From Streptomyces vilmorinianum (lineage in GTDB: Bacteria > Actinomycetota > Actinomycetes > Streptomycetales > Streptomycetaceae), in assembly GCF_005517195.1 (NCBI RefSeq), contig NZ_CP040244.1:4172001-4236000 (forward strand): a stretch of DNA of 64,000 nucleotides, written 5' to 3'. The notes beneath the pieces were generated by a model. The model was not told the DNA's origin and ran no database searches. It worked only from the letters and a program-made list of their open reading frames with translations. The translations under genes and the position numbers were made by a program. Of this stretch, positions 32,048-40,648 are shown in pieces; position 1 is the first letter of the stretch; each line of letters opens with the position of its first letter.

Positions 32048-33427
32048 TCAGGACGTGCCCGAACTCGTACGCGGCGAGTCCCCGCCCGTACGAGTCACCG
32101 CTCGCCGCAGGCCGACCCGGGCCAGTTCCGTCAGCGCCTCGGCACGGTCGCGGAAACCGTGGACGCCGTACGGCTCCACCGAGGCCAGCGCCCGGGCCGC
32201 GTCACGCAGGCCCAGTTCCAGTTCCGCCGAGCAGTCGTCCCCGGCGCGGAAGGCCACTCTGCGGACGTCGGACCACAGGTCCGGGCCCGGGTCGTCGGCC
32301 AGCTCGCGCCGGGCGCGTACCTCCCGCCACGTTCCGTCCAGCCTGGCCCGTGCCACATAGGCCACCCCGGTGCCGTCGGCCTCGATCCTGCCGTCGGCCA
32401 GCAGGACCCGGCCGCCCCACGGCGCGTGGTCGACGTGTCCCACCAGGCGGGCACCGGGCGAGGCGGTTCCGGCGGCGGGGAGCGGCAGTTCGACCGTGAC
32501 GTCCAGGACGAGTTCGGCGCCGCCCGCCTCGCCGCGCATCCGTTCCCGGAAACGCACGCCGCGCGGCGGGTCCCGCATCGTCGTGCACGCGGAGTCCTTC
32601 GGCACGCCCGACGCGGACGCCGAGCCGAGGCAGTCCCACGCGTCCCGGTACCCCATCGCGACCAGGGTGTCTGCGGAGATCCGGCCGGCCAGGAACTCCG
32701 TGTCGAGCGGCAGCGGGTACCGCGGCTTGATCACCTGCAGGACGAACGGCCGGTCCGCGGTCCGAGCGGCCTCCAGTTCGGCGAACAGCGCCCCGTGGGC
32801 GCTCATCTCGATCATGTGCACGTACTGTTCGAGGGAGCCGTCACCCCAGTACGGCGTATTGCCGATGCACCACACCAGCCACACCTCGTCGGCGCCGCGG
32901 CGCAGCGCCTCCCCCACGTTCGCGTCCTTGATCCACACCGCGTCGGTCCAGACGCGCGGTCCGCGGCGCAGGGGCGGGATGAACAGCGGCAGCGACATGC
33001 CCGCCGCCATCAGCTCCAGGTCGATGTCCGTGTGCGGCACCGCCACGCACGTCTTGGTGGCGAAGTCGGCGACGTTGAACGTGCCCGCCACCGGGGAGGA
33101 CCGGATCGTCTCCACGTCGATGCCGAGCGCGGGAAGCACCTTGCGGACCACTCCCTCGGCGTCCCCGAGGGCGGGCAGCGCCCAGGGCCCCTTGAGGTAG
33201 TCCGTGAGCGGCAGCAGCGAGCTGAAGTCCCGTACGCGGAGCCCGGACCACCGCCGGCCCATCTCCGCCGGATCCTGCCCCGACAGCAGCATCCCCGCCG
33301 TCATGATCCCGCCCGAGGTCCCGTCGACATGGTCGAAGTGGACGCCGTGCTCGCGCAGCGCCCGCACGACGCCGGTCTGCCACGCCACGCGCATCCCGCC
33401 GCCCGCGAGGACCAGCGATCGCCTCAT
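32048..33427 (-). CDS. Patatin-like phospholipase with a C-terminal domain shared with the GMC oxidoreductase
   Basis: 459 residues. Residues 1-~270 are a patatin fold: LAGGGMRVAWQTGV (oxyanion loop), DGTSGGIM with the nucleophile serine, and TDAVWIKDA in the position of the catalytic Asp motif (usually DGG/DGA, here DAV). Residues ~300-459 form a beta-rich domain with FRERMRG, GHV...GGR and DDPGPDLWSDV, features also found at the end of the GMC protein at 38186-40648. Patatins hydrolyse acyl esters of phospholipids or glycolipids. It is the last gene of a seven-gene coupled operon, overlapping its upstream neighbour by four bases. Start 33427 begins the conserved patatin sequence. Confidence 0.88.
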   Translation of the reverse strand: MRRSLVLAGGGMRVAWQTGVVRALREHGVHFDHVDGTSGGIMTAGMLLSGQDPAEMGRRWSGLRVRDFSSLLPLTDYLKGPWALPALGDAEGVVRKVLPALGIDVETIRSSPVAGTFNVADFATKTCVAVPHTDIDLELMAAGMSLPLFIPPLRRGPRVWTDAVWIKDANVGEALRRGADEVWLVWCIGNTPYWGDGSLEQYVHMIEMSAHGALFAELEAARTADRPFVLQVIKPRYPLPLDTEFLAGRISADTLVAMGYRDAWDCLGSASASGVPKDSACTTMRDPPRGVRFRERMRGEAGGAELVLDVTVELPLPAAGTASPGARLVGHVDHAPWGGRVLLADGRIEADGTGVAYVARARLDGTWREVRARRELADDPGPDLWSDVRRVAFRAGDDCSAELELGLRDAARALASVEPYGVHGFRDRAEALTELARVGLRRAVTRTGGDSPRTSSGTS

Positions 33428-38189: not shown

Positions 38190-40648
38190 GCGCGCTCCCC
38201 GGTCGGTGCGAAGTGAGAGCCGTAGACACCCCACAACTCGCCCAGGAAGAGCCGGCCGAAGCTCTCCAGTGCCCGGGCGGGGTGTGGCCCCGAGGCACGG
38301 AACGTCGTCAGCTGCTGGGCGAAGTCCCGGGCGAGGATGACGATGATGCCCGCGCCGAGCACCGGGGCGTCGGCGTCGCCGCCCTCCGGTACGTGTCCGG
38401 CGAGCATCCGGACGTACAGGGTCGACGTGTCGCTCCAGACGTCGAATCCGGGGTCGTCGTGCACCTCCTTGTGCCCGACGAGCGTGAGCGGATTCCCGCC
38501 CGGGTCGCGCAGATGCAGCCGGTACAGCATCCGACGCCGGGCCGGGTCGTCGTCGCGGGTGAAGAGGTTGAACCAGCCGGCCTCGACGGGCAGTCGGCCG
38601 CCGAGGGCATCGCACTCGACGTGGCCGGCCGCTCCTGCCTGGTGCCGGGGGTCCGCGACGAACCGGTCGACGTCGTCCGCGGTGATCGTGAGACGGAACA
38701 TCAGCCGCTGGTTCCGCGACCGGCCGAGCGCCCGTCCCTCCTCGGGGTCCGTGACGTCGAGCGCGAGGTGCCCTTTCATCTCCTCGGTGAAGGAGAGGCT
38801 GGTGGGCCGCCCACCGTCCGCGGACGCGGACGCGGACGCGGACGCGGACGCGGACCCGACGCCCGCGCCGGGCGCGGGAGCCGCCGCGGACCGTGGCGTA
38901 CGGCCCTCCTCGATGATGTGCTCGCAGGCGCGGTCGGCGAAGGCGGCGATCGTGAGCGAGGGGTTCGCGCCCACCGGTCCGGGCAGGGCGGCGCCGTCGA
39001 GCACGTACAGTCCGGGGAGACCGAAGACCTCGCCATAGGAGTCGCAGACCCCCTCGGCGGGATGACGGCCCATCGGCGCGCCGCCGAGCGGGTGCACGGT
39101 GATGACGCGGCGGGTCCACCACAGCGGGTTGTCGCGGAACTCGCCGCCGAGCGCGCCGGCCACCTCGCCCATCGTCTTTCGCACGCGCTCGAAGTAGCGG
39201 CGCGAGGTCAGTGTGGTCCAGTCGATGTCGAGGTAGCCCCGGCGCAGGCTCATCCGGCCGTCCGGGAGGTCGCGGCCCATGCCGAGGAGCGGCAGCGAGG
39301 AGTCGGAGAAGACCCCCGGTCCGAGGAGCAGCGCGAGCCGGGCGCTGATGTTGCTCCGCGGGTCGAAGCCGAGCCGGGACCGGAGCCGGTGGAGGCCGAA
39401 TCCGACGGCGCGGCGGACGCTGCCGGGCACCTGGGCCGCCTCGGCGAGCCAGTCCACGAAGGCCGGGTAGCCGGCGTCCTCGACGTAGAACCCGCGTCCC
39501 GTCGAGCCGTCCTGGTCGAGCTCGTCGCCGGCCCGGATGGCGCTGGTGATCACCGGGCCCGTGCTGCTCGCCAGCTTCCGCGGCCCGTTTCCCGCGGCGC
39601 CGCCGGTCGCCTTGAGGACGAGGCCGAGCAGGTCGCCGTTGCCGCAGAATCGGGTGCCGAGGGCCGGGCTGATGCCGCGCAGCGCGGAGCGGTTGCGCAG
39701 GAGCAGGTACGTCGATCCGAAGGAGCCGGCCGCGAGCACCAGGCGCCTGCAGTGGATCGTGTGCAGCGGCAGCCGCCCGGTGGGGGTGCGGTGTCCCTCG
39801 CGGGCCGGGTCGTGGACGACGTAACGGACCTCGTATCCGCCACCGGGCCGCGGGGCGAAACCGCGCACCTCGCAGCGGGTGCGGATGTCGGCGCCGCGGT
39901 GGCGCGCGGCCGACAGGTAGGTGTGGTCGAGGGTGTTCTTCGCGCCGAGGTTGCAGCCGACGTCGCACTCACCGGTCAGCCGGCAGGTTTCCCGCGGCAG
40001 GCCGTGGAGGTTGCCGTACTCCGGCTCGGGGACGGGGGCTCCGGGGACCGGCGCCTCGCCGGGGACCGAGGCGAACGACACGGCGAGCGGCGGCCGGGTC
40101 AGCCGCAGGCCGAGGCGGTCCGCGGCCTCCCGCATCGCGACGGTCTTCGGCGTGTCGTCGTACGGGTAGGGCGTGGCGCCGAGCATCTTCTCGACCTGGC
40201 CGTAGTGCCGATCGAGGTCACGGCGGCTGATCGGCCAGTTCTCGTACCCCCCGCCGGGAAGGGGCGACTCGCGGACGAACCACTTCTCGTCCTTGCGCAG
40301 CAGGACGTTGGCGTAGATCAGCGACCCACCGCCGAGACCGCTGCAGACGATGCCCTCGAGGCCGCGGAACGACCAGAGGTCGAACAGCCCGTGCATGCCC
40401 TCGCTGGGGTCCCAGAAGTTGCGGGCCATGCCGGCGGGCGTCCGGGGGAAGCTGCCGGGAGGGTACGGTTTGCCGCGCTCCAGCACCACTACGGACAGAC
40501 CGGCGTCGGCGAGCCGGTACGCGGCGACCGAGCCGCCGAAGCCCGAGCCGACCACGACGACATCGACCTCGGTCTCTGCTGGGGCTGGGGCTGAAGCGTT
40601 GGCCGGCCCTTGGGCTGGGGCTTGGTTGCGGGGCCGTTCATTCGTCAT
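38186..40648 (-). CDS. GMC oxidoreductase (cholesterol-oxidase-like) with a C-terminal accessory domain
   Basis: 820 residues. FAD-binding VVVVGSGFGGSVAAYRLAD starts at ~residue 29. The middle contains TGECDVGCNLGAKNTLD (a cysteine-rich loop seen in this subfamily) and VHPLGGAPMG with the active-site histidine near the C-terminal end of the core. After an SASASASASASA linker, residues ~590-820 form a separate beta-rich domain with FTEEMKG, GHVECDALGGR and DDPGFDVWSDT. Similar proteins are annotated as cholesterol oxidases, but the substrate may be another hydroxylated polycyclic or lipid. It is the first gene of the seven-gene coupled operon. Start ATG 40648 is preceded by GGGGAA and an AT-rich promoter-like patch (~40670-40705). 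Confidence 0.9.
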   Translation of the reverse strand: MTNERPRNQAPAQGPANASAPAPAETEVDVVVVGSGFGGSVAAYRLADAGLSVVVLERGKPYPPGSFPRTPAGMARNFWDPSEGMHGLFDLWSFRGLEGIVCSGLGGGSLIYANVLLRKDEKWFVRESPLPGGGYENWPISRRDLDRHYGQVEKMLGATPYPYDDTPKTVAMREAADRLGLRLTRPPLAVSFASVPGEAPVPGAPVPEPEYGNLHGLPRETCRLTGECDVGCNLGAKNTLDHTYLSAARHRGADIRTRCEVRGFAPRPGGGYEVRYVVHDPAREGHRTPTGRLPLHTIHCRRLVLAAGSFGSTYLLLRNRSALRGISPALGTRFCGNGDLLGLVLKATGGAAGNGPRKLASSTGPVITSAIRAGDELDQDGSTGRGFYVEDAGYPAFVDWLAEAAQVPGSVRRAVGFGLHRLRSRLGFDPRSNISARLALLLGPGVFSDSSLPLLGMGRDLPDGRMSLRRGYLDIDWTTLTSRRYFERVRKTMGEVAGALGGEFRDNPLWWTRRVITVHPLGGAPMGRHPAEGVCDSYGEVFGLPGLYVLDGAALPGPVGANPSLTIAAFADRACEHIIEEGRTPRSAAAPAPGAGVGSASASASASASADGGRPTSLSFTEEMKGHLALDVTDPEEGRALGRSRNQRLMFRLTITADDVDRFVADPRHQAGAAGHVECDALGGRLPVEAGWFNLFTRDDDPARRRMLYRLHLRDPGGNPLTLVGHKEVHDDPGFDVWSDTSTLYVRMLAGHVPEGGDADAPVLGAGIIVILARDFAQQLTTFRASGPHPARALESFGRLFLGELWGVYGSHFAPTGERA
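38820..38855. repeat. Six GCGGAC hexanucleotide repeats in the GMC interdomain linker
   Basis: Six exact units read on the plus strand, encoding the alternating Ser-Ala linker on the minus strand. Copy number could vary by slippage without breaking the frame. Confidence 0.92.

Follow-up and report, generated by a model that had tools for sequence, protein, structure and literature searches.

A recurrent seven-gene cassette in Streptomyces vilmorinianum with a possible role in membrane-lipid metabolism

Within the window analysed here, a stretch of 64,000 nucleotides from Streptomyces vilmorinianum, seven consecutive minus-strand genes overlap end to end, raising the question of whether they form one functional unit and, if so, what the encoded enzymes act upon. 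In order of transcription, they encode a cholesterol-oxidase-like flavoenzyme (GMC, 38186..40648, 820 aa) ending in a barrel domain (CDOM, 38186..38815), a calcineurin-like phosphoesterase with C-terminal membrane helices (MPE, 36339..38189, 616 aa), an alpha/beta hydrolase with a cysteine in its nucleophile elbow (ABH, 35272..36342, 356 aa), an enzyme of the acetoacetate decarboxylase superfamily (ADC, 34346..35275, 309 aa), two small membrane proteins, of which the first is weakly Anthrone_oxy-like (TM1, 33864..34349, 161 aa; TM2, 33424..33867, 147 aa), and a patatin-like lipase whose C-terminal barrel region has diverged (PAT, 32048..33427, 459 aa). The gene upstream on the same strand (40770..41516) reads in translation as a putative membrane/coiled-coil protein.

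Gene coupling and recurrence of the cassette

As reported in a preliminary description of this locus, each stop codon shares four bases with an in-frame start, namely GTGA at GMC/MPE (38186..38189) and TM1/TM2 (33864..33867), and ATGA at MPE/ABH (36339..36342), ABH/ADC (35272..35275), ADC/TM1 (34346..34349) and TM2/patatin (33424..33427), all on the minus strand. Single overlaps are ordinary here, since, by rough gene calls, a four-base overlap is also possible for 6 of the 32 pairs of same-strand neighbours in the rest of the window; six in succession are unusual (approximately 4e-5 if independent), and far less striking within a tight operon. Across 80 loci in relatives, the junctions shared with the window kept their overlaps at 47-74% (GMC>MPE 24/37, MPE>ABH 28/38, ABH>ADC 42/77, ADC>TM1 32/59, TM1>TM2 29/55, TM2>PAT 28/59), and the junctions of an alternative gene order overlapped at PAT>MPE in 5/28 and MPE>GMC in 6/29 cases. 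The fixed stoichiometry initially read from the overlaps was therefore rejected, because relatives often lose the overlaps and even whole genes, with gene order and content varying.

Recurrence was evaluated in 109 loci (L005-L114 without L099), reduced to 85 by setting aside 24 that run into a contig end; all seven genes are present at L099 too, which stands outside this count, L098 comes from the same genome as L038, and further repeated genomes in the locus counts are possible. The scan was seeded with ADC, which favours loci having this gene. All seven families together with the barrel domain were present in 48 of the 85 uncut loci, such that the set does travel together across phyla, a question that the preliminary description had raised. 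The ADC-ABH core was found in six phyla. The cassette is rare, with ADC present at full length in 2 of 246 Actinomycetota (the window's included) and 3 of 247 Bacteroidota (the centre included).

Two gene orders dominate, GMC-MPE-ABH-ADC-TM1-TM2-PAT in 22/80 loci and ABH-ADC-TM1-TM2-PAT-MPE-GMC in 24/80. Flanking genes, called roughly with our own script, included 87 other gene families shared by at least two flanks across the 80 loci, of which 16 occur in more than one named bacterial family; several of these are shadow frames inside the cassette itself. Flanks differ even between the window and its closest relative (L005), where DNA similarity extends over window positions 32094-41571, including the upstream gene, and then stops; at L006 and L009, similarity to the window begins inside the GMC gene. 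The two dominant orders and mostly differing flanks therefore identify the cassette as self-contained. Reduced sets also occur: eight of the 85 loci are without TM1, TM2 and patatin, three have only GMC, barrel, MPE and patatin, three only GMC and barrel, five MPE alone, and L069 retains ADC only. A search of seven of the genomes without TM1, TM2 and patatin revealed no patatin relative elsewhere. At L005, most of TM1 is deleted (343 bases), and at L061 and L076 it was not recognisable.

Enzyme families and the shared barrel domain

The family names in the preliminary description were upheld in part: GMC, patatin and ADC lie clearly above their Pfam cut-offs and ABH just above (27.1 vs 25.8 bits), whereas phosphoesterase, PHA synthase and, for TM1, Anthrone_oxy all scored below. 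With the family profile, the nearest match of GMC is cholesterol oxidase (4u2l, E 4e-63), to which both catalytic halves align (profile positions 11-328 and 409-546; PDB 4u2l/1b4v). The HPLGG and NP motifs are kept, and the invariant H519 and N562 align to them, this His and Asn being active-site residues of cholesterol oxidase. However, the cholesterol oxidase cut-off of NF058674 was not reached (200.3 vs 850 bits), and GMC differs in having an extra three-Cys motif, an extra barrel domain and no apparent secretion signal. The motif, CxxxGxCxxGC, is present in 76 of 78 GMC relatives, its three cysteines being kept and a fourth position varying among C, S, V, T and I. On a possible iron-sulphur reading of this motif, searching the PDB with the corresponding segment of the window protein yielded nothing useful.

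The barrel domain (A8; 32 sequences, AF2 model pLDDT 92) is common to several proteins, occurring free-standing or fused to GMC, patatin or, at L100, L101 and L103, ABH. There was no Pfam match for the window's copy, only chance-level matches for two members (E 0.05-0.09), and no PDB match by sequence at E<=1. Fold searches returned a best Foldseek E of 0.013 and a best VIA Z of 9.3 (7n34), and the Z scores of 7-9 against avidin-type and other barrels are close to those from models without a clear match; the domain was assigned to no fold family, and a putative lipid-binding role may be considered, from a fold resemblance near noise. At L095 and L096, GMC, barrel and ABH are fused into a single protein of approximately 1150 aa; no gene for ADC, a phosphoesterase, patatin or a TM protein was found on these contigs (11 and 13 kb).

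The patatin scores 84.5 bits against PF01734 (cut-off 27.7) and resembles patatin-like phospholipases in its GxSGG motif, conserved in 69 of 71 relatives, and in a conserved Asp. It differs in the added C-terminal barrel region, which is clear in many relatives, where it aligns strongly with the GMC C-terminal domain, and diverged in the window protein, where the similarity is weak (E 0.001-0.005, to the GMC domain of three other loci).

In ABH, HCQGS is invariant among 25 sequences and HCxG is present in 85/85. In the alpha/beta hydrolase fold region, the profile matched gastric and lysosomal acid lipases at E 1e-10 to 1.5e-8 and PHA synthase at 2.5e-4. The hydrolase earlier labelled PHA-synthase-like is by profile nearer the acid lipases, but Cys replaces the Ser that serves as their nucleophile, as in PHA synthases, whose nucleophile is Cys. 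ABH as a PHA synthase proper was rejected on score, far below the cut-offs of TIGR01836 (16.3 vs 365.3 bits) and TIGR01838 (11.9 vs 622.65 bits).

The phosphoesterase of the window carries GDxVYP and GNHDW motifs, the latter a metal motif found in 74 of 75 relatives, and membrane segments read from its sequence. It scores 16.0 bits against Metallophos (PF00149, cut-off 21.5), which a diverged homologue at L078 exceeds with 30.6 bits. The usual phosphoesterase is absent at L038 and L083, where another gene with phosphoesterase motifs follows patatin; its product is above the Metallophos cut-off at L083 (24.2 vs 21.5), and its homologue at L038 had no Pfam match at E<=0.01. A motif search found no replacement at L062, L067 and L077, which are also without MPE. 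Separately, phosphoesterase matches were observed in 12 genomes, with G013, G087, G107, G137 and G313 at 214-224 bits.

TM1 of the window scores 23.1 bits against Anthrone_oxy (PF08592, cut-off 27.3), and 18 of 21 family members, the window's included, match this model at E<=0.1. For TM2 of the window there was no Pfam match at E<=0.1; its family has none above cut-off, with 2 of 22 members, the window's (E 0.42) included, weakly matching DUF4345 (best E 0.0018).

ADC reaches 59.3 bits against PF06314 (gathering score 29.8), and its model matches MppR and ADC structures in Foldseek at E 1e-10. It resembles members of the acetoacetate decarboxylase superfamily (ADC 3bgt, MppR 4jmd, Swit_4259 5upb) in Pfam cut-off, fold and PK motif, the lysine of which is presumably the Schiff-base lysine. 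It differs in its identity of only 11-17% across 14 fold matches at E<=0.001 and in its PKH motif, and W[GA]xPKH is present in all 84 ADC sequences; by sequence there was no PDB match at E<=0.1. As MppR and Swit_4259 illustrate, this fold also performs non-decarboxylase chemistry. Nine Actinomycetota genomes carry distant homologues that score 78-95 bits. An ADC-family protein is listed among others in cyanobacterial lipid droplets (PMC12923008).

A candidate lipid pathway and its alternatives

That a set of genes stays together across phyla while its order varies argues strongly for a shared pathway, and the recurrence in several phyla with differing surroundings points to a membrane-lipid pathway. 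We give roughly even chances to the seven genes being a single, self-contained metabolic unit whose enzymes work on a lipid on the cytoplasmic side of the membrane; no N-terminal signal segment was apparent by eye on the cassette enzymes. The recurrence of complete sets amid differing flanks, the persistent motifs, the fusions and the alternative phosphoesterase-motif genes speak for this reading, and the reduced sets against it. In the scheme that we infer, including its substrate, product, order of steps, location and the roles of TM1 and TM2, patatin would free an acyl or hydroxyacyl group from the lipid and the membrane-anchored phosphoesterase would take off phosphate, after which the cholesterol-oxidase-type FAD enzyme would oxidise an alcohol, whether on the lipid or on the acyl chain, yielding a ketone or aldehyde, while its barrel domain would hold or present the hydrophobic substrate. 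The cysteine nucleophile of ABH would then hydrolyse or transfer the acyl group via a thioester, and the ADC-like enzyme, through a K153 Schiff base with the keto product, would catalyse decarboxylation or C-C cleavage or joining, with TM1 and TM2 keeping substrate or enzymes at the membrane. A more specific version, in which an alcohol, for instance a 3-hydroxyacyl chain cut from a membrane lipid, is oxidised by the GMC-barrel protein, released by the Cys hydrolase and decarboxylated by ADC to a lipid ketone in several phyla, the barrel being a new mobile substrate-presenting domain, is tentative, at perhaps half that likelihood.

A rival reading that we hold to be unlikely is that the cassette is a small catabolic island of soil and marine heterotrophs for breaking down external lipids such as sterol esters or plant and algal lipids, with esterases freeing an alcohol, GMC oxidising it and the ADC-like enzyme trimming the keto product. 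The nearest matches of GMC and ABH, to cholesterol oxidase and to gastric and lysosomal acid lipases, would fit this reading, as would the many carrier genera that presumably come from soil and sea. However, the seven genes include neither an importer nor a CoA ligase, and an apparent signal segment is lacking on the enzymes. Further, 3-ketosteroid-delta-1-dehydrogenase (KstD, NF009478) was above cut-off in 0/22 carrier genomes, a comparison lacking a positive control as no control genome passed either; relatives below cut-off in 5/22 carriers, reaching up to 699 of 789 bits, favour this reading, but the window's genome had no KstD match at E<=1e-100. Steroid catabolism as a shared context was thus not supported.

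An unlikely further alternative is biosynthesis of a specialised, membrane-protecting lipid or pigment ester, for example derived from a carotenoid or polyprenoid, with which the patchy, cassette-like spread and the presence of PF00494 (phytoene/squalene synthase) in 21/22 carriers would agree. The carotenoid link was not counted as support because PF00494 is also above cut-off in 7/14 control genomes, which are not a matched baseline. Moreover, the cassette has no terpene gene, relatives of the carrier genera are often pigmented anyway, and hopene cyclase (TIGR01507) was found in just 3/22 carrier genomes, making hopanoids unlikely as a shared context. The substrate originally proposed, a lipid, sterol or polyprenoid, is accordingly retained in its general form, with the enzyme mix and membrane parts fitting lipid chemistry, but not as a specific steroid or polyprenoid. 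Least probable is a detoxification or repair set that would clear membrane phospholipids of damaged acyl chains, whether oxidised or hydroxylated; patatin, phosphoesterase and alcohol oxidation would suit it, as would carriers that appear largely aerobic, but the set has neither a peroxidase nor a redox sensor.

Term searches of the open-access literature found no description of these families together, in agreement with the preliminary description, which knew of no described pathway with this set. If the cassette does encode a lipid pathway, then Streptomyces, Arthrobacter, Cyclobacterium and others would make a lipid or lipid-derived product for which no description was found. The cassette also offers a Pfam-unmatched barrel domain moving between three enzymes of the set and a family of alpha/beta hydrolases in which one cysteine is invariant, and, being one operon, it allows a clean genetic test.

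Coupling and recurrence of the seven-gene set

All six junctions of the cassette that the preliminary description had named were found to be true 4-base overlaps. A lone overlap of this size is ordinary, since one may occur at 6 of the 32 other same-strand neighbour pairs in the window outside the cassette (rough gene calls), but the run of six marks a very tight operon. The window's genome, of Streptomyces type, is a single contig of 7.6 Mb, and its nearest named relative is Streptomyces sp. CB02261, with 91% identity in the acetoacetate-decarboxylase-like protein (ADC).

With the ADC sequence as query, a pattern-based scan of a collection covering 84,980 species returned 208 relatives, the best 80 of which were kept. 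Among these 80, the alpha/beta hydrolase (ABH) gene was in the same locus as ADC in 79, the exception being L069. With the oxidoreductase (GMC), calcineurin-like phosphoesterase (MPE), small membrane proteins (TM1, TM2) and patatin (PAT), the order ABH-ADC-TM1-TM2-PAT-MPE-GMC was seen in 24/80 and GMC-MPE-ABH-ADC-TM1-TM2-PAT in 22/80, the other loci being contig-end cuts, smaller sets or variants. The set travels together across phyla. The families themselves are known; searches of an open-access paper library turned up no paper on the set, and within that scope their conserved grouping appears undescribed, as does the barrel domain (described below) that several of the enzymes share.

In 13 Bacteroidota loci, TM2 and patatin are separated by a DUF4345-type membrane gene, which was tested against Pfam for one of these loci (L028, 11822-12232; 40.5 bits); TM2 itself is weakly DUF4345-like. 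Outside the cassette, 87 other families were common to at least two flanks and 16 of these cross named bacterial families, several of the 16 being shadow frames inside the cassette or common genes, e.g. catalase-peroxidase. The window and its closest relative (L005) share DNA only over window positions 32094-41571. Near 10970-10991 (window 33940-34284), L005 lacks 343 bases inside TM1, which is either a true deletion or an assembly fault. GMC is preceded by a minus-strand gene (40770-41516) that by eye has an N-terminal hydrophobic segment and a coiled coil; among three loci compared with the window, it stands before GMC only in L005. Three plus-strand genes that look glycoside-hydrolase-like by eye (26317-31984) converge on the cassette 3' end, about 60 bases from it. 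At E≤1e-100 the third (30161-31984) is matched in 10 of 41 genomes, its own included.

Reduced sets and the barrel domain

Module content was counted over 109 loci, 24 cut and 85 whole. The full set was present in 48 of the 85 whole loci, and another three had all of it except a recognisable TM1 (L005, with 343 bases of the gene missing, L061 and L076). Smaller sets were GMC with its C-terminal barrel, ABH, ADC and MPE (8/85), the full set without MPE (5/85, one genome counted twice), MPE alone (5/85), GMC with barrel and ABH (4/85), GMC with barrel, MPE and PAT (3/85), GMC with barrel (3/85), sets without GMC (2/85; L083, L106), ADC alone (1/85; L069) and others (3/85; L101, L109, L113). The commonest core was thus GMC with barrel (77/85), followed by ABH (72/85). 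No patatin relative was found elsewhere in the genome at E≤1e-15 in the seven four-gene genomes searched.

In L038 and L083, which lack MPE, a different gene with phosphoesterase motifs follows patatin; the L083 gene is above the Metallophos cut-off, and its L038 homologue had no Pfam match at E≤0.01. We take this gene to stand in for a required step; L062, L067 and L077 have no substitute phosphoesterase by motif, which counts against such a reading. A second, diverged phosphoesterase type with a DPGEGD or DTGEGD motif lies near cassette genes on the minus strand of L103 (3899-5392), L078 (16352-17908) and L029 (3-1409). The solitary ADC of L069 (Arthrobacter sp. B2a2-09, 9926-10918) has an intact PKH motif, and the genes on either side of it are those that adjoin the complete cassette in related strains; this ADC is likely a relict after loss of six genes. 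On the plus strand of L093, a partial GMC (377-2188, model 4-394) and a partial ADC (1431-1973, model 173-294) in an overlapping frame suggest either a disrupted cassette or a fault of assembly.

The C-terminal 209 residues of the window GMC (38186-38815, minus strand) are predicted to form a separate domain, a barrel with a C-terminal helix (AF2 pLDDT 92), for which no Pfam family was found at E≤0.05. The barrel also ends patatin in many loci (89-228 bits with the GMC profile in four), the corresponding region of the window's own patatin being diverged. In the Pseudomonadota loci of alignment A3 (L061, L063, L071, L081) it is absent from GMC and carried by patatin. At E≤1e-6 the barrel was detected in 20 of 396 Actinomycetota genomes (window's included), weakly and partially in three (G067, G095, G247). 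Across 15 neighbourhoods fetched from 13 of these 20 genomes, it was fused to GMC (L104, L105, L108, L112, L113, L114), to patatin (L106, L113) or to the N-terminus of ABH (L100, L101, L103), or lay in its own frame adjoining GMC (L102, L107, L109, L110, L111). On the L106 stretch there is no GMC, but the same genome has one on another contig (L105). Oxidase, barrel and hydrolase belong together, as they are fused in one protein.

ADC matched at E≤1e-20 in 12/246 Actinomycetota genomes (window's included), full-length only in the window's genome and G129, partially in G340 and with 78-95 bits in the other nine. Among Bacteroidota, full-length ADC was found in 3/247 (centre included). ABH matched at E≤1e-12 in 4 of 185 genomes in the class of Paracidovorax, twice as a separate protein (one being the centre) and twice in fusions of about 1150 aa. 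The phosphoesterase seed matched 12/246 genomes; seven places in six of these, the window's genome not counted, comprised the full set in G129, a GMC-PAT-MPE triad and a solitary copy in G257, and solitary copies at the places fetched in G317, G219, G174 and G067, G219 also carrying GMC with barrel and ABH elsewhere (L108). Because its seed finds triads and solitary copies, the phosphoesterase family is not exclusive to the cassette. Within the same genus it occurred in 3/121 genomes; besides the window's own, these are L085 and L086, both of which carry the triad.

Enzyme identities and candidate substrates

Against Pfam and NCBIfam, the window's GMC, patatin and ADC were clearly above cut-off, ABH was barely above, the phosphoesterase and TM1 were below, and TM2 had no family. 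Family profiles made from relatives placed GMC nearest to cholesterol oxidase 4u2l (E 4e-63), although far below the cholesterol oxidase cut-off, and ABH nearest to gastric and lysosomal acid lipases, with Cys at the nucleophile Ser position in 85/85 relatives. The modelled fold of the ADC-like protein resembles MppR and ADC. Active-site motifs of the cassette enzymes are kept, including the Lys motif of ADC (84/84), GxSGG of patatin (69/71) and GNHDW of the phosphoesterase (74/75). Read by eye, the sequences suggest membrane helices at the phosphoesterase C-terminus, in TM1 and in TM2, and no signal segment was apparent on the cassette enzymes.

The order of steps in the proposed lipid conversion is one that we infer. 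Pathway markers were sought in 22 cassette-bearing genomes (carriers). Steroid use may hold in some of them, since weaker relatives of 3-ketosteroid dehydrogenase occurred in 5/22 and no control passed the cut-off, which was exceeded in 0/22 carriers. Hopanoids are unlikely as a theme common to carriers, hopene cyclase being present in 3/22. PF00494 was found in 21/22 carriers vs 7/14 controls, which are not a matched baseline. Two Pseudomonadota genomes (G827 and G828, of L062 and L081) carry two adjacent squalene/phytoene synthase genes, and hopene cyclase was not found in them at E≤1e-20.

Phylogenetic spread

A tree of joined ABH and ADC from 79 loci and the window spans six phyla (Actinomycetota, Bacteroidota, Pseudomonadota, Acidobacteriota, Rhodothermota and Chloroflexota) and follows them, with 6 label changes vs a minimum of 5. 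Actinomycetota, Bacteroidota and Pseudomonadota each have loci with all seven families. So does Chloroflexota in its sole locus (L029), where the phosphoesterase is diverged and genes lie on both strands. The usual phosphoesterase is missing from the locus of Rhodothermota (L038), and the Acidobacteriota loci, of which there are three, were incomplete at or close to contig ends. The cassette thus appears to be ancient, passed on mainly by descent or by exchange inside a phylum, and frequently lost or missing.
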